In this document: piece after piece, positions 1,999 to 60,192 of the stretch
How the letters are laid out: each line of letters starts with the position of its first letter
Numbering within the stretch: the first letter of the stretch is position 1
Source of the DNA: Alopecurus myosuroides
Lineage: Eukaryota; Streptophyta; Magnoliopsida; Poales; Poaceae
Direction: 5' to 3'
DNA length: 64,000 nt
Assembly: GCA_028641055.1 (NCBI GenBank)
Contig: CM054063.1
Span: 179,868,756 to 179,932,755 of the forward strand
Notes under the pieces: model-generated
The model's input: the letters and a program-made list of their open reading frames with translations, nothing else
Databases searched by the model: none
Told to the model about the DNA's origin: nothing
Position numbers and translations under genes: made by a program

Positions 1999-2011
1999 GG
2001 CTCTGATACCA
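1999..2011 (-). other. Primer-binding site, initiator Met tRNA type
   Basis: The minus strand reads TGGTATCAGAGCC, the usual complement of the 3' end of plant initiator tRNA-Met. It sits two bases inside the LTR end at 2014 and fixes the element's orientation as minus. Confidence 0.9.
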
Positions 2012-2013
2012 AT

Positions 2014-22154: not shown

Positions 22155-23567
22155 TGATGTCTACGCACACTTATATTCTCGTAGACAGTGTTGGGCCTCC
22201 AAGTGAAGAGGTTTGTAGAACAGCAGCAAGTTTCCCTTAAGTGGATTACCCAAGGTTTATTTAACTCAAGGATATAGAGGTCAAAGGTATCCCTCTCAAG
22301 CAACCTTGCAATTACGATATAAGAAGTCTCTTGTGTCCCCAACACACCTAATACAATTTTCAGTTGTATAGGTGCACTAGTTCGGCGAAGAGAGAATAAA
22401 ATACAAGTAATATGGATGATTGTAAGTGATAATAGCAATCTGAAATAAAAATGGAAGCAAGCAAACATGTAGCAGAATTGATTGTAAACGGTGTTTCAAT
22501 GCTTAGAAACAATGCCTAGGGATCCTACTTTCACTAGTGGACACTCTCAACAATGATAACATAATTAAATGCATAAATATCTCTCTTCACTATGCTACTC
22601 CGAACCACTCTCCGTTCGGATAACAAACACCAATTCATTGCGTAGGGCTACAAAGCACACCTTAAAGTCCCATTCCCATGTCTAGTTAACCCCACACTGT
22701 CAACTTGAGAGTCCTAGAAGGTACTAGACAAACACCAAAATTTCATAGGGTCATCCAACACAAGATATAAATATCATGCTAAACCACACAGTGCACACAC
22801 TACCATAATTACACCGTGATCAAAGTGTCTACGGAGATCTCATAACAAAACCAGTTGAGTAGCATAACAGATGAAAAGTAACATATACTTATTCAACTAG
22901 ATTACAAAGCTCACGATCACATAAAGATCACACCATGGGAGAGAGAGATGAAACACATAGCTAGTAGAGCCTTGAGCCCCGGGGGAGAACTACTCCCTCC
23001 TCATCATAGGAGACAACAACGACGATGAAGATGGTGGTGGAGTCGATGGAGATGGCTCCTGGGGAACTTCCCCGTCCCGGCAGGGTGCCGGAACAGAGAA
23101 TTCTGTCCCTCGAAACTTGGGCGGTGGCGGTGGAGCTATGAAACTTTTCGTGGAAAAAGGCTGATATCCTTAGGGTTTGTGCATCGGGGGGCATATATAG
23201 GCGAAAGGGCGATGGCAGTGGGTGCCCGAGGGGCCCACACCACCCCCAGGTAAGGCCAGGGGCGCACCCGCACCCAGGCATGGTGTGGGGCCTCTCGGGC
23301 CCTCCTCCAGGTCTCCTTTGGACTTCCTTCACCCTCCGGGAATTCTAAGACTTCCGGCTTTTGAATCGTCCAATTCTGAGAATATATCCAGAACAACTTT
23401 TCTGAAACTAAAAACAGTAGAAAACATGAACTGGCTCTGTGGCATCTTGTCAATAGATTAGTCCCGGGAAATCGATAAAATGCCATAAAGTGTAAGGAAA
23501 ACATGTAGCATATGGCATGAAAACAACATGGAACATCAGAAATTAAGGATACGTTTATGACGTATCA
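22155..23567 (-). mobile_element. Solo LTR of an Athila-like element
   Basis: A single LTR of 1413 bp runs on the minus strand from TGATACGTCATAAACG (23567) to GTAGACATCA (22155), with an exact TSD gctca on both sides and no internal region. Solo LTRs arise by recombination between the two LTRs of one element (established mechanism). A TATATA stretch at 23194-23199 is a plausible promoter. The block with GGCGAAAGGGCGATGGCAG is shared with the LTR at 40830-42407. It interrupts the MULE transposase gene. Confidence 0.9.
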
Positions 23568-24198: not shown

Positions 24199-25075
24199 TG
24201 TCGGGGGGCTACCCCCGAGTAGGGGTAAGGCAGGTGGTAAAATGAAGATCAGGATGCTATTTACCGAGTAGGCGGCTACCCGGATACCCTCTACCCGGTA
24301 GTTTCTATTCAGTCATAAGTATTGAAGGCCAAAAGAAGATAAGGAGAAAGATTATAATCGTCCGGGTAGCGGTCAGGTGGTCCGAGTAGATGGGCTGCAA
24401 TCCTACTCGGGCAAGAAGTCAATGGAGCCGTTCTGACAAGATCACGGAGATCCCGCAGCCGTACAGGTGTGCGGTTCAACTTACGGAGCGCATGATTACC
24501 CGCGCGACGGAGTGGCTATAGTGAGGTAGGCGTCTGTCATGTCCTGTCACTGACAGAGGGGACAGGACATGTCGAGGGGCCTACTCTGTGTGACTGACAG
24601 GGGAGACAGGTCCTGTCAGCCGAACAGCGCGGCGACTTCCCGCACCCGCGTCAGCGAGAAACCGAAGGCGTGCTCTGCGCCACTGTGGAGATGTTGCATC
24701 ATCGTACCTTTTATTCTTTGTTTACTCGGCTGGGCACCAGTACATAAGGTGCCCTGCCCCCTCCTGCGTGAGGGACGTTACGCGAGAGAGCATTTATTGC
24801 ACGAGCAAGTGTTAGCAGTAGAGAGAGCAGAGAGTGGCTACTCGGCTGAGAGGCAACTTTGTACTGTGGCTACTCGGATATTATACATACAGAGAGATAG
24901 GCAGGAGTAGGGGTGTTACCTCCACATGAGGGCCCCGAACCTGGGTAGTTCTTGGTGTTTGCAGTGTTTTCTGAGCGCGTCTACTCGACGTGCGATCCCT
25001 CCCCGGATACCTACAGCGCCCATCGGCCCCAAACTCAAGCCATCCCATGGCATCTGTCTTTATTCATCCACGACA
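24199..25075 (+). repeat. 5' LTR of the complete Tat element
   Basis: It begins TGTCGGGGGGCTACCCCCG and ends CCACGACA. The TATA position reads TACATAAG (24741-24748) where the 3' LTR keeps TATATAAG, so the promoter that should drive the genomic RNA looks weakened. Confidence 0.92.
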
Positions 25076-25077
25076 GT

Positions 25078-25094
25078 TGGCGCCCACCGTGGGG
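25078..25094 (+). other. Primer-binding site of the complete Tat element
   Basis: TGGCGCCCACCGTGGGG starts two bases after the LTR. The identical 17-mer is at 56558-56574 in the second Tat element. I do not name the tRNA with certainty. Confidence 0.8.
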
Positions 25095-27590
25095 CCAGCA
25101 GTGGCGCTGGCTGGGGTTCATATTCGGACGGGACCGATTTCTGCTTCGGGAGAGCGCGTGGTAGTGGCCTTGCCCACAGATTCGGCTCTTTTGATTTTGT
25201 CACCGACAACGCCCGTGATTTCGGCGGCAGGCCCGTGCCAGCAGGCGGCTCGTTGCTTTCCTTCGGTGCGCATCTGGTCTACGTCGCCACCACCGTCATC
25301 CGCGAGTTCCCGAAGGAGGTGCTCGTCGCCGAAGATCCTCCTGCTGTACTGGCTGCCCGCGGGAAGCCTTCTGGCTGCTCTACGGACGGCGTGGAGGTGA
25401 TGATGACAGGACCGGCTGTCGATGCCGGGAAAGGCACGGCCGCTACCGCGGAAGTCATCGAGGAACCGGCTTGCGCAAGGGTCCACAAGTCCTACGACAT
25501 GCCCCGGAACATTCCGGGTTACGTGGCTCCTTCCACCGAGCAGCTGGGCATGCCGCCTCCCACCGACCTCGCGCTCATAACGTTAAGGGCACAACTCGAG
25601 CAGCAGCGTCAAGCGCTACGCGGGGAGGCCCTGGAGCTGGAGAAGGTTAGGCTTGAGCTTAAGCTAGCTCAAAACGAGTACAACAGAGCACATGGCTTTA
25701 CTCCCATTTCTAGGCCGCCTAGCAAGATAGGCGTTATCCGCCACAACTTAGGCGCTGAGCTAGCTAGAGATGGTAGGGCTGCTAGCCAAACTGCTAGTTT
25801 GAACACTGTTACTAGGCCCAAATATAGCTCCCCCGCCAAAACTCTTAGGGCTGTAGAGGCAGTTGCTGCTGAGTTACCGCATCTCACTAGTGACACGCGT
25901 GCTAGGCAGCAAGATAGGTTGAATGAGCTAGTGCTAGAAGCTGGCAGGCAGAACGAAGAGTTCCGGAAAGCCAATCCGGGAGCTGGTGCTTCTCAGGTTG
26001 TGCACTCGCAATGCGGTCAGATCTATGGATCAGGCCTCATCGCCGCTTCCTAGCAGTGAGAGGGACCAGAGTGTGAACTCTGGGAAGAATAAACAGATGC
26101 AGGTGTACGACCCGGCTGCCACCGTAAAACAGCACGATGTGGCCCGGCAGCCCGGTCAGAAACACAACTCTGCAGGAGCAGGCTATCAAGCCACTAAAGC
26201 TCACAGCAAGGGGCAATGAGGAAACCGCGCGGGAGCATCGCGGCATCATGCTGCCAACCTGGTCCAGCAGAGAGTGCGGCAGCCAGCTGCTGTGCAGCCG
26301 CAGGCAGTGGTGGCAGTGGCCAACCCGGTTGTTCAACCCGGTCCCGTGCCGCAGGACCGCTACGACGATGGGTACTCGACAATGGAGATGGTCGGGTACG
26401 CTGACCCAAGAAACATCACTGATCGTTTGGGTGACCACATGCTGGAGCCCAGTGACGCAAGATACAAGTTGGACCGGATTAATCGGTCAGCACAGATGGA
26501 GACGAGGGGGCCACCCGGCCCAGCTTGTTTTGGCAACCGCATCATGGGAGAGTCTTCTGTGAACAAGTTCCAGCTGGCTAGAGGGACCAAGTGCTATGAC
26601 GGCAGCACGAAGCCGGAAGACTGGCTAAGTGATTACGTTACCGCTGTGCACATTGCAGGCAGCAACCGGAGATGGGCCGTGAGATATGCTCCCCAGATGC
26701 TGGAGGGCCCTGCCCGGATCTAGTTGAACAACTTGCCGAAGGACAATATTAACTGCTGGTTGGACTTCTCGGAAGCCTTCATCAGCAACTTCACCAGCAC
26801 ATACAAGAGGCTGAATAGGCCGCAGCAGCTTTCAGCTTGCAAGCAGCGAGAAGAGGAGACTGACGGAGAGTACCTTACTCGGTGGAGCACACTAAGGAAC
26901 ACCTGCGAGGGTGTGGACGAGTCACAGGCAATCGCCTGGTTTGCTCAAGGCTGCAGGCATGGAAGCATGTTGTGGCAAAATCTGCAGAGAGAGATGCCGA
27001 GTACGCTCGCCAAGACGATCAAGATAGATGATATGTATGCACTCGGAGACCCTACTCGGCCTTTACTCGATGCATTCGAGCCGAGAAGGAAGCACCATGA
27101 CGGCGGCAGACGCCAGGATTTCCGCAACAAGCGCAGAGGTGACCGCCTCGATACTCGGTATGATGCCAAAGAAGTGAATGCTGTGAACCAAGACCCAGCG
27201 GCTGCTGGGAGTAGCCAAAGGAAGAAAACTGCTGGAGCCCAATACGGGCAGAACCAGAATCAGGGCCAAGGCATCAAGAAGCCATACAGTGCTCCCCAGC
27301 AGGGTAGCGGCAACCCGGATGCAGGAGATGCTCAGAGATTTGTCTTTGCGAACATGAAGGTCGGGCCATGCAGGTTCCATACTCGGCATCCGAGTAGGCC
27401 AACCAACCACACTACCCGGCAATGTAGCTGGTGGGACCGCATCAAGAGTGAAGGTTTTGGTCAGCTGCCCCCTCCTCCTCCTCTGCCGCCTGCGAATGCC
27501 AATGTGCAGCCTATTCGGGCAGCTGCTCCCAGGCCGGCAGTGAATCCGAGAAGGGAGAACGTGAACCAAGTGGCTCAGGGAGCCAACCGC

Positions 27591-27642
<52 letters not shown>

Positions 27643-27692
27643 GGAACAACTACAACAACAACAACAGGAACAACAACAACAACAACGGCAAC
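27591..27692 (+). repeat. AAC microsatellite coding poly-asparagine in Gag
   Basis: A run of 17 AAC codons (27591-27641) is followed by shorter AAC blocks broken by Arg, Tyr and Gly codons, giving more than 30 Asn in about 38 residues. The opposite strand gives a spurious poly-valine frame. Confidence 0.9.
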
Positions 27693-27773
27693 AACGATGG
27701 TGGAGATCGCAACCAGTACCAGGAGCATCATGAGAGCTACATGGTGTTCACCACCAAGCCAGACGACAAGTAG

Positions 27774-28553
27774 TTGCTACACCGGCGTGCGATGGAGGTG
27801 AATGCAGTGATCCCATTTGTGCCTCATTATCTGCTCTAGTGCGAGCAAGAGATTACTTGGTCCAGAGCCGATCATCCCAAGGTGATGCCCAATCCGGGTA
27901 CCTATGCTCTGGTGGTAGATCCCACATTCCTGGGGACCACGAAGAATGCCAGGTTCAGCAAAGTGCTGATTGATAACGGCAGTAGCATCAACATCATGTA
28001 CCGGGATACCCTGGAGAAGCTCGGCCTTGCCGAGAACATGCTGCTACCCAGCAGGACCACTTTCCATGGCATTGTGCTGGGAGTGTCCTGCGCTCCGATC
28101 GGCCGCATCTGGGTAGATGTCCTATCCGGCACCCGGGAGAACTGTCGCACCGAGTGCCTGCAGTTCGAAGTGGTTGATCTTCAGAGCCCCTACCATGCTC
28201 TACTCGGTAGGCCTGCGCTCACCAAGTTCATGGCCTCAACCCATGCAGCCTATCTGAAGATGAAGCTACCTGGTCCCAATGGAGTCATCACCATCTCGGG
28301 TGATTACAAGCGCTCCTTGGAGTGTGCGTCTGCTGGTTCTCTGCTGGCGGAGTCCATGGTCATTGCTGCTGAGAAGAAGAAGATACATGAGGTGGTTGCT
28401 ATGGCTCAGGCAGCGCAAGTCGGTATGGATGGCATGCCGGGTACTCAATATGGAGCAGCTTTCCAGGCCTCCCAGGAAACCAAGAAGGTGCAGGTGGACC
28501 CTGAGTTCCCAGATCGTGTTGCCATCATTGGCGCCGGGTTGGGAGAGAAATAG
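27774..28553 (+). pseudogene. Aspartic protease region of the complete Tat element
   Basis: In the same frame as Gag, after TAG 27771-27773 and a second TAG at 27838-27840, an open stretch from 27882 encodes 223 residues. It contains the retropepsin motif KVLIDNGSSINIMY (DNG in place of DTG) and ALLGRPALTKFMA. It ends at TAG 28551-28553, followed without frame change by the RT leader ESELIHFLREN. A TAG at the equivalent place is present in the second Tat element. Confidence 0.78.
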
Positions 28554-30839
28554 GAAAGCGAGCTCATCCACTTCCTCCGTGAGAATCGGGACGTCTTCGC
28601 ATGGTCTAATGAGGACTCGCCGGGTGTCCCGAGGGAGTTGGTTGAGCACTCGCTACATGTGCGTCCTGACGCCAAGCCAGTTAAGCAGGCTATGCGCCGC
28701 TTTGGTGATGAGAGGAGGAAAGCTATCGGTGATCAGATCACCAAGTTGCTGATAAGCGGATTCATCATGGAGGTGCTGCATCCGGATTGGCTAGCCAACC
28801 CGGTTCATGGTTGAGAAGAAGAAGGAGGACCCCAAGGCCGAGACTGCATGGCGCATGTGCGTGGACTACACCGACCTGAACAAGGCCTGCCCCAAGGACC
28901 CATTCCCGCTACCCCGCATAGATCAGGTGATCGATTCCACTGCCGGGTGTGAACTTTTGTCTTTCATTGATGCCTACTCTGGTTTTCACCAGATACCTCT
29001 TAATCCGGCTGATCAAATAAAGACTGCTTTCATTACCCCGTACGGGGCTTATTGCTATCGTGTCATGTGCTTTGGGTTGCGGAATGCTGGGGCTACCTAT
29101 CAGAGATGCATGCAGAAATGCTTGCATGATCAAATTGGCAAAAATGTGCAGGTGTACGTAGATGACATTGTCATCAAAACGAAAGAAACACATACTCTGC
29201 TTAGTGATATTGAGGAAACTTTTGCTAACCTGCGCAAGTACAGGATGAAAATGAATCCGACTAAATGCACCTTTGGCGTCCCGGCTGGCAAGTTACTCGG
29301 CTTCTTGGTATCCAGTCGGGGCATTGAGGCCAATCCTTCAAAGATAAAAGCTATAGAGAGCATGTCTTTGCCGAGATCACTGAAGGATGTGCAAAAGTTT
29401 ACCGGGTGCTTGGCTTCTCTTAGCCGCTTCCTGGGAAGAATGGGTGAGAAGGCCTTGCCTCTTTACCAGCTCATGAAGAAGAGTGATAAGTTTGTCTGGA
29501 CATCGCAAGCCGATGTGGCCTTCAGAGAACTCAAGACCATGCTGGGTAGCGCACCCATCCTGGCTAGCCCGCTACCCAAAGAGCCAATGTTGATGTACAT
29601 TGCAGCAACCAACCGGGTAGTCAGCGTGGTGATAGTGGTGGAAAGAGAAGAGGAAGGCAAGAAGGTGCAGCGGCCAGTGTATTATCTCAGCGAGGTGCTA
29701 TCCAGCTCCAAGCAAAACTACCCGCATTACCAGAAGATGACGTATGGCGTGTACCTGGGTGCCAAGAAGCTCAAGCACTACTTCCAAGAGCATCCCATCA
29801 CAGTGGTGAGTACTGCTCCCATCTCGGAGATCATGGGCAACAAGGAAGCAAGCGGCCGGGTAGCCAAGTGGGCAATCGAGCTAGCCGCGTACACTCCTCT
29901 GTACGCGAGAAGAGAAGCAATCAAGTCACAAACTCTGGCAGATTTCTTGGTGGATTGGGCCGAGATGCAGTATGATCCTCCCTTGCCGGAAACCAACTAC
30001 TGGAAGATGCATTTTGATGGCTCCAAAGTGAAGGAAGGCCTTGGTGCTGGCGTAGTGCTTACGTCACCCAAGCGAGATCAACTCAAGTATGTGCTGCAGA
30101 TCCATTTCAAAGCATCTAACAATGTGGCCGAGTATGAGGCATTGGTACATGGCCTGAGGGTAGCCAAGGAGATTGGGGTGCAGCGTATCGTATGCTATGG
30201 CGACTCGGATCTGGTGATTCAGCAAGTATCCGGCACCTGGGATGCCTTGGATGCCAACATGGCGTCCTACCGGTTTCTGGTGCAAACCATGACTGGATTC
30301 TTTGAAGGGTGTGAGTTCCATCACATACACCGAGCTGAGAATGATGCAGCTGATGAGCTGTCCAAGTTGGGGTCTTCTCGGCAGTTCATCCCGGCTGGGA
30401 TTGCCTTGGAGCATTTGAGAAAGCCATCCATCAAGCCATCCCCCAACTCGGAATCTATCTTTGTTCCATCTCTGCCAGGAGAGGAAGCTGTGCCCATGGA
30501 GATTGATTGGGAGGCTGCAAAAGAGAACCCGGGGACTGTCGTCTCCAACCCGGGGACTGGCACCTGCAACCCGGGGACTGCTCCATTCAACTCGGGGACT
30601 GTCGCATTCATTGAGGGGATCATTTCTCAGTACACGGGGACTCACGGACTCGCCCCCAACTCAGAAGAGGTCTTGGTAGCTGATCCAATGGAAGTGGACG
30701 AACCAGTGTTTCCCACACGGGAGACACCGAGTTGGGCTATGCCCATATTATCCTTTCTAACGGATGGCACATTGCCAAGTGACGAGGTCACAGCCAGGCA
30801 GATACAGAGAAGATCCAAGGGCTACACAATCATCAACAA
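28554..30839 (+). pseudogene. pol: Reverse transcriptase and two RNase H domains, Tat element
   Basis: The RT leader (28554-28800) runs from ESELIHFLREN to a one-base frameshift near 28805. The large frame 28807-30915 (702 codons) then holds the RT fingers and palm with FIDAYSGFHQI and the catalytic YVDD (29154-29165), followed by a Gypsy-type RNase H (about residues 255-380, YYLSEVL). A second, archaeal-type RNase H starts at MHFDGSK (about 30007) with YEALVHGL and the GDSDLVIQQ motif. Two RNase H domains in tandem are a hallmark of Tat. The linker to integrase contains five NPGT-like repeats. Coding changes frame again near 30840. It would copy genomic RNA into DNA in the particle. Confidence 0.85.
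30528..30642 (+). repeat. Five CGGGGACT repeats in the RNase H-integrase linker
   Basis: The octamer CGGGGACT occurs five times (about 30530, 30551, 30572, 30593, 30635), encoding repeated PGT. The same octamer stands in the polypurine tract at 38435 and again near 32062, 32482 and 34562. Confidence 0.8.
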
Positions 30840-31997
30840 GTGCTGCACAGAAGGAGTCCTACTGGCGTGCTGCAACGCTGCGTTGAGCCAGAGGAAGGAG
30901 AAGAAATTCTTATAGAGATACACCAAGGAGAATGCGGACATCACGCCTCTTCTCGGGCTCTGGTCAACAAGGCTTTTCGGCATGGCTTCTTTTGGCTCAC
31001 TGCCTTGAAGCAAGCTGAAGATATAGTGAGAAAGTGCAACGGCTGCCAGAGATTTGCAAGTAAGATTCATATGCCAGCTTCCGAGTTGAAGACCATTCCC
31101 ATTACTTGGCCGTTTGCTGTTTGGTGTTTGGATATGGTGGGTCCTTTCAAGCCAGCTAGAGGCAACATGACTCATATCTTGGTCATGGTTGACAAGTTCA
31201 CCAAGTGGATTGAGGTCAAGCCTATTCGGAAGTGTGATGGAGTCACAGCTGTGAGTTTTCTGAAGGATGTCATTTTGAGATACGGCTATCCGCACAACAT
31301 CATCACTGATAATGGTACAAACTTTGCTGAGGGTGCATTTGCAAGATTCTGCAGAGAGAAGCGGATCCGGCTAGATGTTGCATCTGTTGCGCATCCTGCC
31401 TCCAATGGGCAAGTTGAAAGAGCAAATGGCATGGTCCTATCCGGGATAAAGCCAAGGCTGATTGAGCCATTACAGCAAACCCCTGGTTGTTGGCTGGACG
31501 AGTTGCCAGCGGTGTTGTGGAGTCTAAGGACTACCCCTAACCGATCAACCGGATACACACCATTCTTCCTGGTATATGGAGCTGAGGCCGTGTTGCCCAC
31601 TGACCTAGAGCATGACTCGCCCCGAGTAACCCTCTACACTGAGGCGGAGGCGAGAGAAGCTCGAGAAAATGACGTTGACCTGCTAGAAGAAGCAAGAGAG
31701 TTAACTCTGTCACGTTCAGCCATTTATCAGCAAAATCTGAGGCGTTATCACAGCCGGAAAGTAAACCCAAGGGTTTTCCGAGAAGGAGACATGGTCCTTA
31801 GGCTCGTGCAGCGCACGGCCGGGATGCACAAGCTATCCCCTCCGTGGGAAGGGCCCTTCATTGTGAGCAAGGCTCTGCACAATGATGCCTATTACCTAGT
31901 TGACGCACAGGCACCCCAGAAGAACAGGCCGGATAAAGCTGGAGAGGAATCTAAGCGCCCCTGGAATGTAGCTCTACTCCGCCGTTTTCATTCATGA
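30840..31997 (+). CDS. pol: Integrase of the complete Tat element
   Basis: The 385-codon frame carries an HHCC zinc-binding module (IHQGECGHHASS...CNGCQ, residues about 28-72). The catalytic core follows with D in WCLDMVGPF (about residue 97), D in ITDNGTNF (about 156) and E in NGQVERANG (about 193), so the DDE triad is complete. The C-terminal part has GDMVLRLVQR and WEGPFIVSKAL. No chromodomain is seen, as expected for Tat. It is out of frame with the upstream RNase H by one base, so it is probably not made as part of a polyprotein here. Confidence 0.85.
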   Translation: MLHRRSPTGVLQRCVEPEEGEEILIEIHQGECGHHASSRALVNKAFRHGFFWLTALKQAEDIVRKCNGCQRFASKIHMPASELKTIPITWPFAVWCLDMVGPFKPARGNMTHILVMVDKFTKWIEVKPIRKCDGVTAVSFLKDVILRYGYPHNIITDNGTNFAEGAFARFCREKRIRLDVASVAHPASNGQVERANGMVLSGIKPRLIEPLQQTPGCWLDELPAVLWSLRTTPNRSTGYTPFFLVYGAEAVLPTDLEHDSPRVTLYTEAEAREARENDVDLLEEARELTLSRSAIYQQNLRRYHSRKVNPRVFREGDMVLRLVQRTAGMHKLSPPWEGPFIVSKALHNDAYYLVDAQAPQKNRPDKAGEESKRPWNVALLRRFHS

Positions 31998-32647
31998 GAA
32001 AAAAGTTGTATGTATCTCCTCAAACCGAGTTAAATTCTAGTCGGCACTCCGAATTCAAACTCGGGGACTGCCCTTGTCCAAATTTGCTCTGTGTTGTTCT
32101 GTTCTGTTTTACCTTGCCTACTCGGTTGCCTTACTTAGAATTTCATAAGCATATCTAGTAATGTGTTTAAACCCAAAGGCCAACTCTTCGACTCTGCTGC
32201 TGTCCGCAACCCGGCTTCATGGCAAGCAAGAGAACAAGCCAAAGGTCAATAAGCACATGAAAAATTGCTAAGGAAAAGAGAGGTGTAGCAACCGAGTAGG
32301 GTGTTCTTTACTGTTTCTGTTGTCTTTTTTCGGTTAAGTGGTGGGCAGCGTTACCATGCAATTTTCTAAGTGGCTAAGTATCTGAAACTTGAACTTTGAA
32401 ATCTTGTGACTCGACTACCAAAAAGCCACAAGTGGCAGGTAAGAGCAAAGACAAAGAGAACAAGTGAATGAAAAATGCAACTCGGGGACTTGCATTGAAA
32501 CGCAACCCGGCATTGAGCCAGAGTTGCTAAACTGTTAACCAAATAAAATTGAGTAGCAAGGAACTTAAGACTTAAACTTGTTCGATACATATGCGCCCGG
32601 CATCCCGGGGATCTGATGAGATTGTCTGGAGATAAAGTTTGCAGGAG
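31998..32647 (+). other. Region between integrase and the antisense gene
   Basis: There is no coding frame of interest in this 650-bp stretch. It has two CGGGGACT motifs and is the likely site where sense and antisense transcripts converge or overlap. Confidence 0.55.
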
Positions 32648-35600
32648 CTATGCAGCAGTGGAGGCAGTATCAGTGTTGGCGTTGGTAGGCGCTTCCGGCT
32701 CGGAGGCAGCAGTGGTTGCGATAGGCTCGACTGAAGGAGGAGTCGTAGTTGTAGCGATGGGCTCTGATGCAGTGTTGGAGGCCTGAGTAGCTGCAGTGTT
32801 GGGAAGAGGGTAGAGCTCGCCAGTCGCGGTCCCAGTAGCGCCCAGCTCCAGAGCTGGATCGTTGATCACCATCTCGGTGGTGACGGTCTCCTCCTGCGCA
32901 GCGGATTGCGACTGCTCAGTCTCCAAGTTGGCTCCCAACCCGGATTCCTCTGCAGTGCCGTGCTGCTCAGTCTCCTTCTGCTCAGACTCCTCGTTCTTGG
33001 CCCCTTCCTCCTCCATCTCCTCATCATCCTGGTCCTGGTCTTTGCCGCTTTCGTCCTCGAACTCGGCCTCTCCCTCGTCTTTGTCACCCTCAACATCTGT
33101 ATCCGGCTCGGTGGGGCCGTCGATGTACACGCTGGTGTCGGCGTAGGAGGCAAGCTCATAGGCTACTTCCTTCCGGCGGGAGACGCACGCGGGGCGTTTG
33201 GTCCACTTGGATCATTGCGCCGAGTGCCTATCCTGTCGAGATCCAGGTTCTCGTACCAAGACAGAATGAAGTGAAGTAGCTCATCGGCGCCTGCCCGAGC
33301 AGCGGAAGCGCGCCACTTCTTCAACTCCACCTTGACCTGGTCCAGGTTGGTGGCGATCTCGCGGAAGGTCTCCGGAACCTCCTTCTCGGGCCAGAAGAGC
33401 TTGTGCAGCTTGATACCAGTAGACACCATGGAGGTGCCCAGGCCCTTGAGGGAACGGATTTGTGTCTTGAGGTTGAGGAGGTGATCGCTGATGCTGGATG
33501 TGTTGTCGATATTCAGACCAGAGGCGGCCCTGGCCTGCCTTGCCTTGTCCACAGCAGGTACACTAGCGGAACGGAGTTCCGGGAAGATATCTGCATAAGG
33601 ATCTGAGTTGGATCAGAAACAGTGACCGAGAAGAAGTGAAACCGGTAGAAGAAAGCAGAGAAGAAAAAGACAAGAGAAGCAAGGAGTAGCGGTAACTCAC
33701 ATTCCATGTCCACCACCAGGCCTCCCAGCTTGACCTTCCAGTCCTCGGCGTCTTGGAGATGCTTGTCATGGACGCGGCGCGAATCAGTGATTTGCGCCTC
33801 GAGATCTTGGTTCCTTTCCTTGAGCATGGTGTTTTCCAGCTCGAGTGCTCGCTTCTCAGCAACGACAGTCGCTTCAAACTCCTGCTTCTCGCGGACGGAG
33901 TTGATTGCGGTTTGGAGTGCAGCTAAGAGATCAACTTGGAGCTTCTCAAACTCTGTCCTCTCGGCAGCGCGCTCCTTCTCAATCTCGGCTTCCCGTGCCT
34001 GCACTTGCTGGTGTGCCTCAGCTGGTGTGAGGCAGTTCAGATGCTGCTCCCGGAAGTTCTTATATTCTTCTGCGAGAAGAACAACACCATTGAGCAGGGT
34101 AGCCAGCAGAGAGAAGGCAAATACAGAGAAGAGAGAACAGAACTCACCTTCCAGAGAAGAGATTTTACTCTGCGCGGAGGCAGCAAAAACCTCACAATCT
34201 TGGTGTCTTTCCACCAGAGCTTTGAGCTCGCCTACAGAGAAGAAAGCAGTTGAGCAAAAAGCAAAAAACGGGCGTAAGTACAAAACGCACAAACCGAGAT
34301 GCTAAAAGCTTACCTTCAATTTCAGAGAGCTTGAGGGTGCGGTCCAGAGCCTGCTGCTCCATGGCATCCCTGTCTCTCTTGTCAGCCTCCAGAGATTGGT
34401 TTCGTTCTCTGGCTTGGCGGTGATTCCAGAGAAGCTGACGGAAAACTTTTGTCCTTTTTTGGACGCTATCCTGCAGGGGAGAAGGAGAGAGTATAAGTTT
34501 TGGAAGATTTGGCCCGAGTAGATTTCAACTCGGTTGTGCCTCATCTACTCGGCCCGAATCTCGGGGACTGGGGTAGTGACTAAGAGAAGAGAAAGAAGAA
34601 ATGGCAACTCGGAAAATTCAAAATGGAGAGGGACACTTACCACATAACTTTGCTCGATATCTTCAATATTCTTGCGCAAGACGAACAGCTTGCCGGCCAG
34701 AGTGCTGCAAGGGCTGGCCACGGCCATGCCAACAGGACCAATGTCGGCCTTGTTCCAGTCTGTCCGGTAATGGTCGAGCTTGCCCAACTCGGCACCATCC
34801 GAGGCGTGGTTGCCGTACACCTTGCTATCCCAGGCCTTCTCGACGTGGCCTACCCGGTCCAAGATGGCTGCAATGCCTGCTTCGGGTAGCTCCTCGTCGT
34901 CCTCGCCGCGGGAAGAGAGTTCCTTAATGACCAAGGAGTCTTTCTTTCCCTTGGACTTGGAGAGGCTCGCGGCTTTGCGTTCTTTGAGAGCGGCTAGCCG
35001 CTGATCCTCCTTGGACAATTGGATTTGGTGGCGCTGCTGCAGTTCTGTCCAATACTCGGGATACTTGCGCTGCCCGCTGGCACCAGCACCAGCACTCAGC
35101 TTCTCGACAGGACCAAGGGTAACCTCGGAGGGAACCAGGCTGATGTTTGGGTTAGGCGGTGTCTTGTTCTGAGTAAGCGTCAGCTGGGTGCTCTTGGTCG
35201 GTTATCCGGGTTGTCCGCCTTGCGGCTTGGAGGGCAGCGACGCCTGTCCAGCCTGTGAGGCGGCGCGTCTTGGCTGCGTCCGGGTTGGTTCAGCACCCGT
35301 CTTGGTAGTCTTCTTGGTGCTTGGTGTGGGGGTTGACCGAGAAGGCGGAGGAACTGTTGGAGGTGCTTGGAAGGCTGGCTGAGATGGAGGTGGCACCTGT
35401 TTGGCAGGTGAAGGTGCCTTGCGAGTTGGAGGCGCCTTTGCTTGGTTGGCGGCAGCGGCGTCCGGCTGCACCACATACTCGCGGGAGGCCTCCTCCACGG
35501 AGTCCCCTGTGCTCTGCACGGCAGTGGGATCCTCGGTGTGCTGCGCGGCAGCAGCGCCCGCTGCTCGGCAGCGGGCTTGGGTTGTTCTGCAGCATTTGTC

Positions 35601-37725
35601 TCGGGCTGCTGCTCGGTGGTGGCGTCTGGACGCTCCACGGCCGTGGTGTCCTGCTGTTGCTCGGCAGCATGTTCAGCGTCTTCCCCAGCTGATGCAGCTG
35701 GGGGAGTTGGCGGTCTCTCGCTGTTGGCAGCATCTTGGGCAGCCTGCTGCGCTTCAGGCTGCTGCTGCTCGGAGGCGTGGTCGGTATCATCCCCGGCGCC
35801 ATCGTTCTCGGCGCCGAGATCTTGCTCTTCGTCAATAGGGGAGGACGCACGCGTCCTACCCTGCGGTTCCTGGTTTTCATCATCATCGAGAGCTCTACGA
35901 GCTGCTCTCGGGGCGCGGTTGTTTTCTTCTTGGGACGAGGTGCAGCAGTGGCATCAACGTCGAGAGCCTCACTGGAAGAAGAAATAGAGTCAGAAGGGAA
36001 GCGGAAAAAGGAACAAGGGAAAAGCACAACAGAGAACCAGGGTATACTCGGAAGCACTTACCCGTCCATGGTAGGGGCGCGTTTTCGGCGGCCGGTGGTG
36101 ACTTTGATTGCTGGCTTCTTCTTGGTCCTCTTGGGAGGAGGTGCCTGTGCACCACTGCCAGTCCTTTTCCGAGTAGTAGGAGCAGCCACGGACACCGGAA
36201 TCGCGTCCACGGGCTCCTCTAACTCGTCCAACTCAGGCTCCTCTGCAGAGAAGAAGGGAGAATTCAGAACAAGCAAAAAAGAAGGGAAGCAAAGCAGACT
36301 GCGAGTAAGCGGAAAGGTGAACCAAGTCACCTTCTTCATCTTCGGACCAATCCCGAATAGAGGCTTCAGCACGGGATTTACCTTCCTGGCCGGCGCGTGG
36401 AACGCATAGGGTGGCTTGGACGTCATACGCCGTGGCGTCATCCTCAGTTCTGTCATCTTGCCAGTTGGCCTCAAAGATTTCATTGTCCTCTTCTCTCTGG
36501 CGATTGATGTGCTTGTTGGTGCAAGCAAGCACAGTGAGTTGAGTTCTCGGATAAGAAGTTCTACTCGGAACAAGCGTGCAAACATAAAGCACATTAAGCT
36601 AAGTGGTTCTACTCTGGATAGCGTGCAAACACAAAGCATATTAAGCTAGTGAGTCTACTCGGAACAACATGCAAACATAAAGCATACAAAGCTAAAGGTT
36701 CCTACTCGGCATAGCATGCAAATACAAAGCATATAAAGCTAAGAGGAGTTCTACTCGATGTCAATCACAAGTAATAAGGGTGCGGAGAAGAGCACTAACC
36801 TGGGTAATCTTCTTGGTGCGGCTATACGGCACGAAGCCGTATGCCCAGTTCTCGGTGAGCGTGGTCTGCATAATAGACCTGGCCCAGATGGCCACCTCAG
36901 CCTTGCTGAGCTCGAAGGTCGTCGTCCTGGTACAATCCCGAGGACCTCCCATGTAGCACATCTTATGTGCTCGGTCCTGGAGCGGGAGTACCCGGCGCGA
37001 GATCCAGCAGGCGATTGGGTCGTCCTGAAGGAGCCCTTCGGCCGCCAACTCGGTCAAGCGCTTCTCGACCTGGACGACGTCTGGCACGGTCTTCTTCGGG
37101 TCGTATCCCTAGTTCTGCCCGGTGGGCAGCGCATTCACAAACTTAGGGAGCCCTATCCGGTCTTCGGCGGGCTTTCCCTTCTCGGCGGGAATGTTCTTCA
37201 CGTAGAGGAAGCCGCGCTGCCACTTGCGCACGGTATCCAGCCCGAGTACTCTCGGGTGGTGTCCGGTGCGGCGCTGCAGCATCATCGCACTACCCGTCTG
37301 GGTCTTCGTGCGGGGAACGAGAGGATTGTTGGGATTGGGCACGCTTTGTTGACGGAGGAAGAAGTAGCGTGCCCAGGTTTGAACTGTCGGGTAGACACCC
37401 AGGAAAGCTTCACACACGGTGGCGTGTGTGGAGAGCATAACTATGGCGTTTGGTGGAAGGTGGTGCGGCTGGAGGCCGAAATGGCGGAGAAAGTCCGAAA
37501 AGAACTTCGGAGATGGGAAGGCCGAAGCCGCGTTTGAAGTGGGAGAGGAATACCACGTACTCGTCCTTTTCTGGTGCCGGGACGAGCTCGGTGCCGGGAG
37601 GCCGGCAGACAACGCCGGGGAGGGACTCGGCGGGTGTTCACCAGCCACTGGCAGTCTTCGGCGGTGACGTCCGAGCCCTCCCAGCCGGCTCGGGCGGGAA
37701 CCGTCTCGTCTCCGTGCTGGTCCAT
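32648..37725 (-). CDS. Eight-exon antisense gene of the Tat element (Transposase_28-like)
   Basis: Minus-strand exons by my reading: 37725-36800, 36496-36331, 36242-36062, 35971-34641, 34470-34314, 34231-34148, 34069-33701 and 33602-32648. All seven introns (78-303 bp) are GT-AG with donors such as GTAAGTG and GTGAGTT, and reading phase carries across the junctions. Total coding is about 4.2 kb (about 1390 codons). Exon 1 (LRHFGLQPHHLPPNAIVML, TYMGGPRDCTRTT-like blocks) resembles the plant Transposase_28 (putative gypsy-type transposon) family. Exons 3-4 are basic then Pro/Ala/Gln-rich, exons 5-7 form a long coiled coil, and exon 8 ends very acidic. Lesions: two one-base frameshifts in exon 1, TAG near 37111, a frameshift near 35900, TAA near 35202 and a frameshift near 33165. 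Function is unknown. A role in trafficking or regulation of the element is speculation. Confidence 0.78.
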
Positions 37726-38445
37726 GGAAGCGAGGTTGCTGTTGGAGAAGAAGAGCTCGTCGGAGTTGAGGGCGAGGATGACGGCGGTGGCGCGCCGAGA
37801 TTCTTGCTCTCAGTTCTCACGGTGGGGGCGCGGTGAGTACTCGCGGTGGCGCTGTGCTCGACGGCGGCGACAGAGGCGATGGGAGCGCGAGATTGGAAAG
37901 TGAGGAGGAAAGAGAAAAGGTAGGCGGCGCAGGGTATTTATCTCTCCCCGCGAGCTGCAGTTACTACTGGATTGATCGTGGCCAGAGATCGTGCGGCGTG
38001 GGTTAACTGCCCGTTAGAAACGCACACAGCGCAATACGCGCACGTAACGGGCGCAGTTAATCCCACGTCCTGGATCGTGGCCTTTCGAGTACTCGTTCGA
38101 GGTGACCTAACGGGCTGTGGGCCCTGGGTGTAGTGATAGGCGCGTGGCCTGCTGCTGCGCAGGCACCGAGGCGTCAAGGGCTTGCGCGTGTGACGCGTGC
38201 CCCACGGTGACACGAGAAGCTGGATTCGATCTGGACAGCGCGGGATCGCGTTGAAAATTTCACCAAGGTAATTTACTCGGCGCAGAAGGGATTTCTCCAA
38301 TAAGCGTGATGGGGAAGTTCGAGTAGGAGTTATGGGTCAGGGTTGAAGTGCAACTCGGCCTCATTCTTTCAAAGAAGACAATTTGGTTTAAGCTGGCAGA
38401 GCCCTACGAACAAGTTCGCTGGACTCTACCAGCTTCGGGGACTAA
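37726..38445. other. Antisense-gene upstream region and polypurine tract
   Basis: This GC-rich 720-bp stretch contains the probable promoter and leader of the antisense gene; a TATTTATC-like sequence lies near 37936. It ends in the polypurine tract GCTTCGGGGACTA (38432-38444) directly before the 3' LTR. A minus-strand frame 37638-37820 has no recognisable product. Confidence 0.5.
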
Positions 38446-39322
38446 TGTCGGGGGGCTACCCCCGAGTAGGGGTAAGGCAGGTGGTAAAATGAAGATCAGG
38501 GTGCTATTTACCGAGTAGGCGGCTACCCGGGTACCCTCTACCCGGTAGTTTCTATTCGGTCATAAGTATTGAAGGCCAAAAGAAGATAAGGAGAAAGATT
38601 ATAATCGTCCGGGTAGCAGTCAGGTGGTCCGAGTAGATGGGCTGCAATCCTACTCGGGCAAGAAGTCAATGGAGCCGTTCTGACAAGATCACGGAGATCC
38701 CGCAGCCGTACAGGCGTGCGGTTCAACTTACGGAGCACATGATTATCCGCGCAACGGCGTGGCTACAGTGAGGTAGGCGCCTGTCATGTCCTGTCACTGA
38801 CAGAGGGGACAGGACATGTCGAGGGGCCTACTCTGTGTGACTGACAGGGTGGACAGGTCCTGTCAGCCGAACGGCGCGGCGACTTCCCGCACCCGCGTCA
38901 GCGAGAAACCGGAGGCGTGCTCTGCGCCACTGTGGAGATGTCGCATCATCGTACCTTTTATTCTTTGTTTACTCGGCTGGGCACCAGTATATAAGGTGCC
39001 CTGCCCCCTCCTGCGCGAGGGACGTTACGCGAGAGAGCATTTATTGCACGAGCAAGTGTTAGCAGTAGAGAGAGCAGAGAGTGGCTACTCGGCTGAGAGG
39101 CAACTTTGTACTGTGGCTACTCGGATATCATACATACAGAGAGATAGGCAGGAGTAGGGGTGTTACCTCCACACGAGGGCCCCGAACCTGGGTAGTTCTT
39201 GGTGTTTGCAGTGTTTCCTGAGCGCGTCTACTCGACGTGCGATCCCTCCTCGGATACCTACAGCGCCCATCGGCCCCAAACTCAAGCCATCCCATGGCAT
39301 CTGTATTTATTCATCCACGACA
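38446..39322 (+). repeat. 3' LTR of the complete Tat element
   Basis: The 877-bp partner of 24199-25075 retains an intact TATA box TATATAAG (38988-38995). The flanking ataaa pairs with atcaa on the left side. Confidence 0.92.
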
Positions 39323-40829: not shown

Positions 40830-42407
40830 TGATGGAGTGTAGTTGACACTCTCGTTGGTAAACCCCAAGAAAAAGGTTGTGAAGAGTGCAGCGGCAAGTT
40901 TTCCCTCAGAAAAAAACCAAGGTTGAATCGAACAGTAGGAGGACAAGCAATCTCTAAAGGTTGATGCAGCTGAGATGGCAGGGTGCACTACCGGTTCAGC
41001 AGCAACATGGAACCTACACAACACAATCAAATAACTTTTCCCCAACGAAGCAGTGAGGTTGTCAATCTCACCGGTTTTGCTGATAACAAAGAGGTTAAAT
41101 GTGTGGTGTGGAAAACAATAGTAGCGGTGTGAAAATAATGGAAGCAGTGTGAAAGCAGTGGAAACAGTATGTGTGTATTGTAAGTATGAGAAAATGGACC
41201 GGGGTCCACAGTTCCCTAGATGTGTATCTCCATAAAAGATAGCTAACATGCGTGGTGAAAACATTACAGCTGGGTAATTGACATATAAAGAACATGCATG
41301 ACATAAAGATTACTATGAGATTCATGCGGGCATTACAAAAAAAATACATAGATCGTCATCCAACTTCATCCATGACTAATAGTTTACCCTTCGAATATCA
41401 TCCGAACAAACGTTGGGTATTAAGTTGCAAGCAACGGATAATCCTAGTAAGCAAAGTGTGTAATGTAAACAATGTAAACGAAGTAAACATCGTTGTTTTC
41501 TCCCTAATGGCAATAGACATCCTCCATCTGTCATGTTTCTATCACTCGAGCATAGATGCAAAGGAGGCATGAACCCACTATCGAGCATAAATACTCCCTC
41601 TTGGAGTCACTGGCATCTACTTGGCCAGAGAATCTACTAACAATGGAGATCATGCAAGATCATAAATAGCGTACACATGAAGATAACATGATAGATTGAT
41701 AATCAACAGACATAGCATTCAATAATCATCGGATCCCAGCAAACACAACATGTAGCATTACAAATAGATGATCTCGATAATGTGAGGCAGCTCACGAGAT
41801 CTAAACAGGAGGCATAAGGTGGAGAGTACAACCATCTTGGTACTGCTATGGACCCATAGTCCAAGGATGAACTACTCACGCATCACTCTGGAGGCGGGCA
41901 TGGTGGTGTAGACCCCTCGGATTATGAATTCCCCTCCCGACAGGGTGCTGGGGAGAGCTTCAAAACCCTCCCGATCTCGGGTTGACGATGACCTCGGGTT
42001 TTTCTCGGGACGAAGTGGTAAATTTTTAGGTTTGATGTATCGGGGGGATAAATAGGCGAAAGGGCGATGGCAGTGGACACCCGAGGGGCCCACACCAGCC
42101 CCAGGCGCGTCCAGGGGGTACGCCGCCCTATGGTGTGGCCCCCCTCCGGGCCTCTTCGGGACTCTGTGGAACCTTCGGTAATTTTAAGAATTCCGGGCTT
42201 CGAATTTTCCAATTCCGAGAATATTTCCAGAACAACTTTTCTGAAACTAAAAACAGCAGAAAAGATGGAACTAGCTCTGTGGCATCTCGTCAATAGGTTA
42301 GTCCGGGAAATCGATAAAAATGGCATAAAATGTAAGGAAAACATGTATCATATGGCATGAAAACAACATGGAACATCAGAAATTATAGATACGTTTATGA
42401 CGGATCA
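40830..42407 (-). repeat. 3' LTR of Athila-like element no. 2
   Basis: This 1578-bp LTR begins TGATGGAGTG on the plus strand and ends CGGATCA. Its first 1 kb corresponds to 46158-47164, with differences every few dozen bases, so the element is older than elements A or the complete Tat. The distal part shares a block with the solo LTR (around 42055-42110). Confidence 0.8.
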
Positions 42408-46157: not shown

Positions 46158-47164
46158 TGATGGAGTGTAGTTGACACTCTCGTTGGTAAACCCCAAGAGA
46201 AATGTTGTGAAGAGTGCAGCGGCAAGTTTTCCCTCAAAATAGAAACCAAGGTTGAATTGCAAAGTAGGAGGAAAAGCAATTTCCGAAGGTTGATGCAACT
46301 GAGATGGCAGGGCGCACTACCGGTTCAGCAGCAACATGGAACCTACACAACACAATCAAATCACTTTGCCCCAACTAAGCACTGAGGCTGTCCATCTCAC
46401 CGGTTTTGCTGATAACGAAGAGGTTAAATGCATGGTGTGGAAAACAATATGAAGACAATATGAAAACAGTAGCAGAAGTGTGAAAATAGTGTGTGTATTA
46501 TTAGTATGTGAAAATGGACCGGGGTCCACAGTTCACTATAAGTGTCTCTCCATAAAAGATAGCTAACATGCATGGTGAACAAAATACAGCAGGGCAATTG
46601 ACAAATAAAGAACATGCATGAAATAAAGGTTACTATAAGATTCATGCGGGCATTACAACAAAATACAGAGATCCTCATCCAACTGCATAATCCACCCTTT
46701 GAATATTATCCGAACAAACGTTGGGTATTAAGTTTCAAGCAACGGATAATCGCAGTAAGCAAAGTATGTAGTGTAAACAATATAAACGAAGTAAACATCG
46801 TTGTTTTCTCCCTAATGGCAACAACACATCCTCCATTCGTCACGTTTCTGCCACTCGAGCACAAATGTATAGGAGGCATGAACCCACTATCGAGCATAAA
46901 TACTCCCTCTTGGAGTCACTAGCAGCTACTAACAACGGAGAGCATGCAAGATCATAAATAACATACACATGAAGATAACATGATAGATTGATAATCAACA
47001 GACATAGCATTCAATAATCATCGGATTCCAGCAAACACAACATGTAGCATTACAAATAGATGATCTCGATCATGTGAGGCATCTCACGAGATCTAAATAG
47101 GAGGCATAAGGTGGAGAGTACAACAATCTAGCTACTGCTATGGACCCGTAGTCCAAGGATGAAC
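46158..47164 (-). repeat. 5' LTR of Athila-like no. 2, inner part
   Basis: The LTR starts TGATGGAGTG and is collinear with 40830 onward up to the bases tgaac (47160-47164), where the Copia LTR begins. The continuation lies beyond the window. Confidence 0.78.
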
Positions 47165-48491
47165 TGTTGGAACGCGTAGAGATAAACAAAAACTTTTATA
47201 CGCAGTACTTCCAAGATCTAGCCGAGGTAGAAGGCCACGAGGATTACCACTAGACGCGTAGGTGCGGATTATCGATGCAGCGCGTCGATATAGTGTAGTC
47301 CCACGATCCGATCCAGCCGATCCAATCCCGCGAACGTCGAAGTGCTGAACGTACAACACCTCTGTCGGTATCCACACGTACGAGGAGGAGCTCCGACGGC
47401 GGACTGCTAGGTCTGGTGTGACGGATGGACTGAGTGGGGTTAGGGTTCCCAACGCATGGGGGTAGAGTAACGTCCCCACTGGGCAACCTGCGCCCCTCTT
47501 TATATAGCGAATGGTAGTGGGCTTCACAACACTTGTGGCACATTCCCTCTGTGAGTCCGACACACAAACTCGGTCCATTTCCGGTTCGGGTCCAACCCGA
47601 CCAATACATTTGCTCCCGCTCTTAAGTGTGCGACCCTGCAGGCTCATGGCGACTTCGACACGATTGGAGTCCGACTCCCAATCGATCAATCGGTAGTGGC
47701 TCCTAGTAGAAACCGCCGACTCCCAAGTCCCATTGAGTCATGACGACATTCCTTCCAATGTGACTTTCATCTTAGTCCCTTTTGCCTCACGATATACCTT
47801 GTCGAACTATAGGCGATTTATCGTCATCCCTTAATAGCTCAACTATCTTCTCGGTCCGTGATATATGATTCATCTGACTAACTCTTAGTCAACAGACTCA
47901 GTTAACACTTAACCGAGTTGCGCATGGCCATGCTTCCGGAATCATATCACTCGGGAGGGCCTAGAGAATATCTCTCCATTCGGAGGGGCAAAATCCCATC
48001 TTAATTATCTACATCACGCAGCTTGCTTCTCATTCGACCCGAACTTTGCCTTTATAACTGCCTTGTCACATAACATCGTTTGACAGAACCTAAGTCGTTG
48101 ATCCACATCTCGGATTGTGCGACAACCTCAGGTCTAAGGATTACATTGATTGAGACATGAAATGACGACTTGCTCATTGCATCTCAATATGGGTCAGTCT
48201 GACTTGCTAAACTCTTTAGCCAAGTCTGTGAACGTTGGAATGGCATCGCCATGCCCATGACAAGTGGAACCGAGTCATCAGACAACACTCACATTAGTCT
48301 AGGGTGTGTGTCCAGCACAACCTTGATGACCAAGGACAATTTAGTATGAACAACATGAATACATAGTTCCACAATCGAATCACATATTCAATGACATCTA
48401 TCAGATGTTCAAAACAAGGGCGACTTAATAACTTTATGAATACATTGGGAATTATATCATACATGATTCCCTCTAGGGCATATTCCCAACA
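47165..48491 (-). repeat. 3' LTR of the Angela-type Copia
   Basis: The 1327-bp LTR has perfect short inverted termini. The polypurine tract GTGCAAGTGGGAGAC stands immediately upstream on the minus strand (plus 48492-48506). Confidence 0.85.
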
Positions 48492-59096: not shown

Positions 59097-60192
59097 GTGG
59101 GAAGGACGCAGTTCAGAACCAATCAATTACACCAAGGAAGAATGGGAAAAGATTAAGTCGGAACCCTGCGTCCACCATTCGCAATTTGGGAAACCCACCC
59201 ATACCAACGCACAATGCCGGCTGAACAAGCATATGAAAGGCAGTGCAGGATCCGGAAATAAGGGGAAGAATTCCAAAAGGAAGTTTTCCAAGCAAAAGCC
59301 AGAAGCTGAGAAAGAAGACAGTGAATCAGACACTGACGAAAAAATCCAGGAACAGCAGCGAAAAGGCGAGCCCAAGTTTCCGAGAGTTGACGGAGAGTGT
59401 GCCCTAACTTTCCTGGCAACTCCATCATCAAAAGTGGCAAAAAGAACGCTTCGAGAAATAAACGCAGTTGTTCCGGCAACTCCGAAATTCTTGAAGTATT
59501 CAAACACACCAATCACCTGGGATCAGTCTAATCATCCCGGGAATATCCCTGAACCCGGCACGCAAGCTCTTGTTGTAAGTCCTATTGTCCAGAACACTAG
59601 GCTAAGAAGAGTGCTGATGGATGGAGGATCCAGCATTAACATAATGTACCTGGATACACTGAGGCATCTGAAAATCTCCGAGACCCAGCTCAACCACAGC
59701 AACATACATTTTCACGGCATTGTTTCTGGCAGGCAAGCACGATCCCTAGGAGAAATTTCCCTAGATGTCACTTTCGGAGAAAAAGATCACTTTCGTCAAG
59801 AAAAAGTATCCTTCGAAGTGGTGCCGTTCGAAATCGTGTATCATGCGATACTCGGACGTCCAGCTTTCGCCAAATTCATGGCAAGATCATGTTATATCTA
59901 TAACAAGCTGAAGATGCCAGGGCCAAAAGGAGAAGTAATCACCATATCGGGAGACTTCAAGTTGGCAAACAAGCTGGAAAAAGAAAACGCCCTTTGCGCT
60001 GAGAAAATCATAGCAAAGGAAGAGTTGAAGGAGCTGGCCAAAGAGGTATCGCCGACAGAAATGCCGGCAGGAAAAGAAACCCGGAAGCCAGCAGATAGCT
60101 TCAAGGCCTCCGAGAACACAAGACAGGTAATCCTAGATCCCAACGATCCGACAAAATTTGTCGTGGTGGGAACTGGGATGACCGACAAATAG
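59074..60192 (+). CDS. Gag C-terminus and aspartic protease, second Tat element
   Basis: The 372-codon frame begins with a Cys/His finger (CVHHSQFGKPTHTNAQC, near 59165-59215), equivalent to the one in the complete Tat Gag. After an acidic linker come protease motifs RRVLMDGGSSINIMY (DGG in place of DTG) and AILGRPAFAKFMA. It ends at TAG 60190-60192, followed in the same frame by EGELIKFLREN, the RT leader. The protease part is uninterrupted. The start shown is only where the frame opens, since it is downstream of a frameshift from gag. Confidence 0.75.
   Translation: MEVKKGNRWEGRSSEPINYTKEEWEKIKSEPCVHHSQFGKPTHTNAQCRLNKHMKGSAGSGNKGKNSKRKFSKQKPEAEKEDSESDTDEKIQEQQRKGEPKFPRVDGECALTFLATPSSKVAKRTLREINAVVPATPKFLKYSNTPITWDQSNHPGNIPEPGTQALVVSPIVQNTRLRRVLMDGGSSINIMYLDTLRHLKISETQLNHSNIHFHGIVSGRQARSLGEISLDVTFGEKDHFRQEKVSFEVVPFEIVYHAILGRPAFAKFMARSCYIYNKLKMPGPKGEVITISGDFKLANKLEKENALCAEKIIAKEELKELAKEVSPTEMPAGKETRKPADSFKASENTRQVILDPNDPTKFVVVGTGMTDK

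Follow-up and report, generated by a model that had tools for sequence, protein, structure and literature searches.

Plant long terminal repeat (LTR) retrotransposons are generally described as lacking introns, with Ogre and EVADE as the exceptions (PMC12786077), and in those exceptions the introns belong to sense transcripts (PMC12786077, PMC6317226). For the Retand (TatVI) clade, antisense open reading frames (ORFs) with a TRP28 domain have been placed between pol and the 3' LTR (Vicient 2025, PMC11963269; Neumann 2019, PMC6317226), and in the same position the maize element Grande carries an antisense accessory gene, gene23, for which an own upstream promoter and a nuclear protein are reported (PMC7264820, PMC11963269). 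Antisense transcription is described as starting from that promoter for gene23 and as weak for Retand (PMC7264820). The word "intron" occurs 0 times in the main text of PMC11963269, the intron passage of PMC6317226 concerns Ogre, and no description of introns in an antisense TRP28 gene was found in the open-access PubMed Central literature. Here we analyze a 64,000-nucleotide stretch of the Alopecurus myosuroides genome (the window; GCA_028641055.1, CM054063.1, positions 179,868,756 to 179,932,755). It contains a 15.1-kb Tat/Retand-type LTR retrotransposon, 24199-39322 from LTR to LTR on the plus strand, and between its pol/integrase region and its 3' LTR, on the minus strand at 37725-32648, a gene of eight exons and seven GT-AG introns. 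With a probability of roughly 0.9, we read this as a genuine intron-bearing antisense accessory gene of the retrotransposon, whose transcription, splicing and function are predicted from sequence. Antisense TRP28 ORFs of Retand are thus already known; the seven-intron spliced structure is apparently undescribed in the open-access literature.

A sequence-only reading of this DNA had proposed seven GT-AG introns between minus-strand coding blocks, with the reading phase kept and all three junctions of exons 5-8 in phase 1. The map bears this out, with intron lengths of 303, 88, 90, 170, 82, 78 and 98 nt and phases, assigned by hand, of 0, 1, 2, 0, 1, 1 and 1:

37935-37941, minus strand: TATA-like ATAAATA 5' of the antisense gene, with a pyrimidine-rich stretch after it; outside the LTR
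36800-37725, minus strand: exon 1, Transposase_28; two frame changes and one stop in the window copy
36497-36799, minus strand: intron 1, GTTAGT...CAG, phase 0; holds a tandem repeat of ~90 bp
36331-36496, minus strand: exon 2, acidic
36243-36330, minus strand: intron 2, phase 1
36062-36242, minus strand: exon 3, basic clusters resembling a nuclear localization signal
35972-36061, minus strand: intron 3, phase 2
34641-35971, minus strand: exon 4, first part rich in Pro, Ala and Gln; two frame changes and one stop in the window copy
34471-34640, minus strand: intron 4, phase 0
34314-34470, minus strand: exon 5, coiled coil, 157 nt
34232-34313, minus strand: intron 5, phase 1
34148-34231, minus strand: exon 6, coiled coil, 84 nt, as in the distant family L062
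34070-34147, minus strand: intron 6, phase 1
33701-34069, minus strand: exon 7, coiled coil
33603-33700, minus strand: intron 7, phase 1
32648-33602, minus strand: exon 8, conserved C-terminal domain, then acidic tail; one frame change in the window copy

The start of exon 2 is less certain than the other borders, with an alternative in-phase AG 15 nt upstream. The gene spans 5.1 kb of genomic DNA and has 4,169 nt of exons; the pol ORFs (27882-31997) cover ~4.1 kb, and it can fairly be called as long as pol, as it had been. Because it carries five frame changes (two in exon 1, two in exon 4, one in exon 8) and two in-frame stops, the window copy is a dead pseudogene, a state of which the sequence-only reading had said nothing. 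The tandem repeat lies at 36560-36741, inside intron 1, which varies from 242 to 352 nt among 20 full-gene copies; the published tandem arrays of Retand elements may be partly intronic.

The junctions were compared with proteins from other grasses. Three protein searches, each scoring the ~7,990 candidates that shared most words, gave 64 proteins; since only top candidates were scored, here and in the genome searches below, all counts of relatives and copies are lower bounds. Among the first 29 relatives, all named Lolium or Festuca, junctions 1 through 7 are crossed by 11, 7, 12, 11, 15, 15 and 15 proteins, with 0-12 extra residues at the junction. Alignments over the spliced exons are long (for example, P0019 at spliced bases 1669-3603 and P0024 at 1678-3600), and matches of the same relatives break up against the unspliced DNA. 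The 35 later proteins (P0030-P0064, mostly unnamed, from the sources ena, jgi and lgn) were inspected at the predicted end of exon 1, leaving out 9 that lacked the landmark motif. V, as a GTN donor in phase 0 gives, stands there in 22 of the 26 scorable proteins; of the remaining 4, 2 have V one residue later and 2 have none. Many of the 26 are closely related, and a p-value computed for this count is therefore too small. P0032 reads on through an intron-like stretch that is missing from P0005 and P0009. The relatives also bear on intron 6, whose 78 nt contain no in-frame stop and through which ORF 33513-34292 runs, so that a single copy alone could be read as coding there; that reading was rejected, since the 15 of 29 relatives crossing the place have 0-2 extra residues.

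More distant families of the same genome share parts of the architecture. L062 matches the DNA of the window's gene in three short pieces and L063 in none, yet several landmarks recur: in L062, intron 4 in phase 0, intron 5 in phase 1 as far as its outer borders go, an exon 6 of 84 nt and, in phase 1, the donor of intron 6; in L063, judged by eye, intron 7 in phase 1. The donor of intron 7 lacks GT in L062, where the gene is broken too. In L059-L061, exon 1 is 21-29% identical to the protein relatives, the DNA has no match to the window's gene, and by eye the position corresponding to the end of exon 1 has a GT donor (GTAAGT, GTAAGA, GTGAGT). L062 also carries, at 1482-1535 on the gene strand, an extra 54-nt exon within the equivalent of the window's intron 5, bordered by GT-AG and ending like exon 6 (ITKISALE), which is suggestive of a duplicated coiled-coil exon in this related family. 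A separate cluster of TRP28 ORFs with open frames, 326-543 residues long, lies on contig C1 at 541.7-543.7 Mb (L002, L003, L005, L006, L007), with the similar L001 at 509.3 Mb. L001-L007 were set aside as relatives of the antisense gene, being another TRP28 group with 23-36% identity to the protein relatives over short stretches; the contig C1 ORFs may be host genes or domesticated copies, and may point to where the antisense gene came from.

From the perspective of the published maps, the region would be several independent unspliced antisense ORFs, one with TRP28 and one or more similar to coiled-coil or low-complexity sequences, each a gene of its own. That is how the literature draws it: Vicient 2025 reports TRP28, Smc, polymerase III gamma/tau and other domain hits among antisense ORFs, counted from 600 bp upward (PMC11963269), and in the window the minus strand does hold ORFs of 150-260 aa, one of which extends across introns 6 and 7. 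Independent ORFs do not predict relatives whose proteins span all seven junctions, each junction in 7 to 15 of 29, nor matching phases at every join, nor splice dinucleotides kept above background, and exons 5 and 6 fall far below the published ORF cut-off. Moreover, introns 4-6 in L062 and intron 7 in L063 hold the same place and phase where the DNA is barely alignable. We regard independent ORFs as very unlikely, and the spliced gene as the reading that accounts for these features, with GT-AG introns, a kept frame and conservation between relatives all found.

The retention of introns was followed through other copies in the same 3.57-Gb assembly, in which the window belongs to contig C7 and each search scored the best 40 or 150 places of thousands. 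For introns 4-7 with their exons as DNA query, the best 40 of 5,193 candidates were scored, the window included, at 85-100% identity. Two sets were drawn from the genome: 20 full-gene stretches, and 29 loci for introns 4-7 that comprise the same 20 plus 9. All seven introns are present in 20 of the 20 full-gene copies and introns 4-7 in 29 of 29; a spliced exon 5-6-7 probe gave exon-by-exon matches only, with no intronless copy among the best 40 of 1,459 candidates. Splice dinucleotides are intact in 267 of 280 cases across the 20 copies (GT 133/140, AG 134/140), whereas other GT and AG dinucleotides are retained at 81.1% and 83.6% in the gene and at 82.0% and 86.0% inside the introns. For introns 4-7 in the 29 copies the figures are 217 of 232 (GT 110/116, AG 107/116) against a background of 83.0% and 84.7%. 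Relative to the window, the 20 copies have 214 insertions and deletions (indels) across the 4,169 bases of exon and 178 across the 909 bases of intron, that is, 2.6 and 9.8 per kb per copy, where the exon count includes the window's own lesions, scored against every copy, and 81 of the 178 intron indels lie within the repeat-bearing intron 1. Indel lengths divisible by three make up 63 of 214 in exons and 29 of 178 in introns (p=0.003). In all 21 of 21 sequences the longest spliced ORF exceeds the longest unspliced one, with maxima of 1,031 and 320 residues.

Selection on the frame separates what was kept while the element moved from what was lost after it landed. Two copies on long branches, L041 and L054, were left out of the frame comparison and the shared-variant count and included in the 21-sequence tree, with the same sign. 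Variants shared by at least 3 of 19 sequences occur at 189 of 2605 sites (7.3%) in codon positions 1 and 2, at 242 of 1302 (18.6%) in position 3, at 125 of 872 (14.3%) in introns and at 0 of 28 splice dinucleotide bases. Singletons are spread nearly evenly, at 22.4% of sites in positions 1 and 2, 21.9% in introns and 25.8% in position 3. In the 21-sequence tree the ratio of nonsynonymous to synonymous substitution (dN/dS) rises from 0.26 on internal branches to 0.46 on terminal ones (odds ratio 1.79, p=1.4e-13), and without L041 and L054 the two values are 0.25 and 0.41; by segment, the odds ratio is 4.5 for TRP28 and 1.4-1.9 for the other four. Reading the frame shifted by +1 or +2 gives internal-branch dN/dS of 1.31 and 1.55. 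Since codon positions 1 and 2 are avoided by shared and hardly by private variants, the protein was kept in the moving lineage and decay came after landing: the protein is under selection before insertion, and copies decay afterwards.

The same observation bears on the possibility, raised in a 2020 review (PMC7264820), that the antisense transcript acts as RNA, regulating the sense genome through double-stranded or small interfering RNA, with the protein irrelevant. Codon-position-specific selection means that the protein mattered in the propagating lineage, and an exclusive RNA role is correspondingly improbable. An RNA role in addition to the protein is possible.

Several results weigh against a spliced antisense gene, or against parts of the case for it. 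Antisense transcription and splicing at the mapped sites are predicted from DNA and protein models, and the relatives' proteins are themselves gene predictions by other groups, of which P0009, P0013 and P0027 keep apparent introns; by eye, P0009 has an extra stretch at the place of the intron at junction 2 and P0027 at junction 7, which agrees with introns at the same places, yet marks these models as predictions. Introns 5 and 6 have just 5 and 1 indels, fewer per kb than exon 1. Of the 21 sequences, only 10 have exons 5-7 fully open when joined, and in 4 the open run over that region is longer unspliced than spliced. Private changes do reach the splice bases, 9 of 28 by a singleton and 1 by a doubleton. 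As for the branch contrast, the first part of exon 4 does not reach significance by itself (p=0.06), internal-branch dN/dS is 0.55-0.97 for introns read as codons, an opposite-strand frame with shared third positions has 0.34 and an odds ratio of 1.58, and one long-stem subfamily may be behind part of the effect. Finally, the sequence-only reading had named equal rates of exons and introns across copies as one result that would count against it, and in pooled form the rates hardly differ: shared variation affects 12.9% of exon and 14.9% of intron sites and private variation 28.6% and 21.6%, while shared variation per intron spans 3.7% (intron 5) to 38.6% (intron 2). We set the pooled rates aside because the two compartments differ in base make-up and most changes are private. 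Exons and introns are separated only by the tests on codon position, on shared versus private variants and on indels; in those finer forms the proposed contrast holds.

Least likely of all is a reading confined to this single element, in which the gene is a recently captured host gene or a second transposon inserted in the opposite orientation. The TRP28 ORFs of the other group do cluster on contig C1, and TRP28 may also be a host gene, but the 3' part of the antisense gene is present in 29 other copies, the best match reaching window position 32,108 or lower in 23 of the 29, and 97% of Retand clusters are listed with antisense TRP28 ORFs (Vicient 2025, PMC11963269). The copy loci stop there, ~100 bp away from where the integrase ORF ends, and linkage of the copies to pol itself is outside their span. 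An ancient capture is possible.

For a spliced antisense gene, we propose the following mechanism. An internal promoter of the gene's own, lying outside the LTR, would drive transcription, and the transcript would be spliced at the seven introns and translated, where the frames are intact, into a protein of ~1,390 residues. The packaged sense RNA would hold the introns only as reverse complements, unread by the spliceosome, and this reversed orientation in the genomic RNA is what we propose spares the introns during retrotransposition. The sequence-only reading had made the same suggestion, and it fits the absence of intron loss in the copies examined. ATAAATA at 37941-37935 is a candidate for the internal promoter: each of its seven positions is conserved in 90% or more of the copies with a base at that place, although this is only mildly above the flank, which is mostly kept at 80-90% or more.

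The predicted protein, where frames are intact, would consist roughly of TRP28, a linker with basic clusters, a coiled coil, a conserved C-terminal domain and an acidic tail. Exon 1 matches PF04195 Transposase_28 (TRP28) at E=3.1e-15 and 56.6 bits against a curated cut-off of 26.2, and the basic clusters of exon 3 are found in the linker that follows. The coiled coil and acidic tail had both been named from the sequence, and both are there: in exons 5-7 the heptad contrast is modest, being reached by 9 of 300 shuffles, and the tail in exon 8 is 25% D+E and 4% K+R. A search of solved structures with exon 1 gave nothing of note (one match, E=0.27), and a profile of the 29 relatives gave 11 chains with E of 0.0028 or worse, all at profile positions 680-887, in the coiled-coil stretch. 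In a search of viral contigs (IMG/VR) for relatives of exon 1, 10 stretches matched a pattern and none was confirmed. PMC7264820 and PMC11963269 describe the Grande protein as nuclear and TRP28 as predicted to bind DNA. We tentatively favor, at somewhat less than even odds, a nuclear, self-associating, DNA- or chromatin-binding accessory factor that aids the element's own expression or integration; a caution is that this function is drawn from the basic clusters, the coiled coil and published statements on relatives.

The host element has the following features, with LTR borders placed by eye:

24199-25075, plus strand: 5' LTR, TGTCGG...GACA, 877 bp
26724-27773, plus strand: gag ORF piece, PF03732 Retrotrans_gag at 3.9e-07
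28807-30915, plus strand: pol ORF with reverse transcriptase (RT), RNase H and RVT_3 (PF00078 at 3.4e-30, PF17919, PF17917, PF13456 at 1.2e-17)
30840-31997, plus strand: integrase ORF, PF00665 rve at 4.9e-14
38446-39322, plus strand: 3' LTR, 877 bp

An aRH domain between RNase H and integrase is the described mark of Tat/Retand elements (PMC6317226). The RT ORF has a second RNase-H-like domain, PF13456, at residues 403-520, after RT_RNaseH (257-362) and with integrase in the next ORF; by its place, this match is probably the aRH domain. Together with the long internal region and the antisense TRP28 coding sequence that lies there between pol and the 3' LTR, this agrees with the earlier description of a Transposase_28-like antisense gene in a Tat-type element. 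The internal region, 25076-38445, is 13,370 bp long, more than the maximum of 12,869 bp given for Retand in the text of PMC11963269. The LTR pair is 97.383% identical over 879 aligned bp, and the five bases flanking the LTRs, where a target site duplication of 4 or 5 bp would be expected for the lineage, read ATCAA and ATAAA, equal at 4 of 5. At a grass substitution rate of 1.3e-8 per site and year, the LTR divergence puts the insertion near one million years ago. Within the gag ORF, an internal repeat at 27584-27695 encodes a long asparagine run. Elsewhere in the window, direct repeats at 40899-41873 and 46228-47165, 87-94% identical in pieces and 5.3 kb apart, are probably the LTRs of another, older element; repeats at 23298-23567 and 42137-42407 (81-88% identity, 18.8 kb apart) flank the studied element on both sides, which suggests a nested insertion; and another gypsy pol at 60184-61843 is 63% identical to the pol region described here.

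How far this structure extends is a separate question. We give slightly better than even odds that, throughout the Retand clade, the antisense TRP28 region forms a single ancient gene with several exons and not a set of loose ORFs, on the basis of one grass genome and grass protein models. If so, the several antisense ORFs in published maps, with labels such as Smc, polymerase III gamma/tau and checkpoint protein, would be its exons; it would be among the largest sets of intron-bearing genes passed through reverse transcription; and, since the introns could not be removed from genomic RNA, the protein could come only from chromosomal copies through the nuclear spliceosome. A single-ORF survey found TRP28 in only 23% of Retand elements and extra ORFs of gypsy elements in 314 groups (PMC6317226), and introns may be behind both the low rate and the many groups. 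In any case, a seven-intron gene carried through many rounds of reverse transcription, as predicted here, would contradict the intronless picture of these elements, and the exon coordinates allow tests of the antisense RNA, the protein and its function.

Known systems match this gene in part. HBZ of human T-cell leukemia virus type 1 (HTLV-1) is spliced. Named in PMC11963269, it is an antisense nuclear regulatory protein of a retroelement, comparable by description to the product of the proposed gene, but its antisense promoter is placed in the 3' LTR (PMC7264820), whereas the candidate promoter here is internal. Cer1 of Caenorhabditis elegans, an LTR retrotransposon, makes an accessory nuclear protein from a spliced RNA; it is likewise comparable by description only, and is not described as antisense in PMC12786077. 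The introns reported for Ogre and EVADE are in sense RNA, while the seven introns here are antisense and would be invisible to the genomic RNA. Grande gene23 shares the antisense orientation and the position between pol and the 3' LTR, and for it a promoter and a nuclear protein are reported. Closest are the Retand elements themselves, which have in common with the element studied the long region between pol and the 3' LTR, the antisense PF04195 ORF, Smc-like similarity in further antisense ORFs and the tandem repeats (PMC11963269, PMC6317226). The Retand papers, as far as their texts go, count uninterrupted ORFs, where at this locus we find the exons of one predicted gene, with mapped junctions and the tandem repeat in intron 1.

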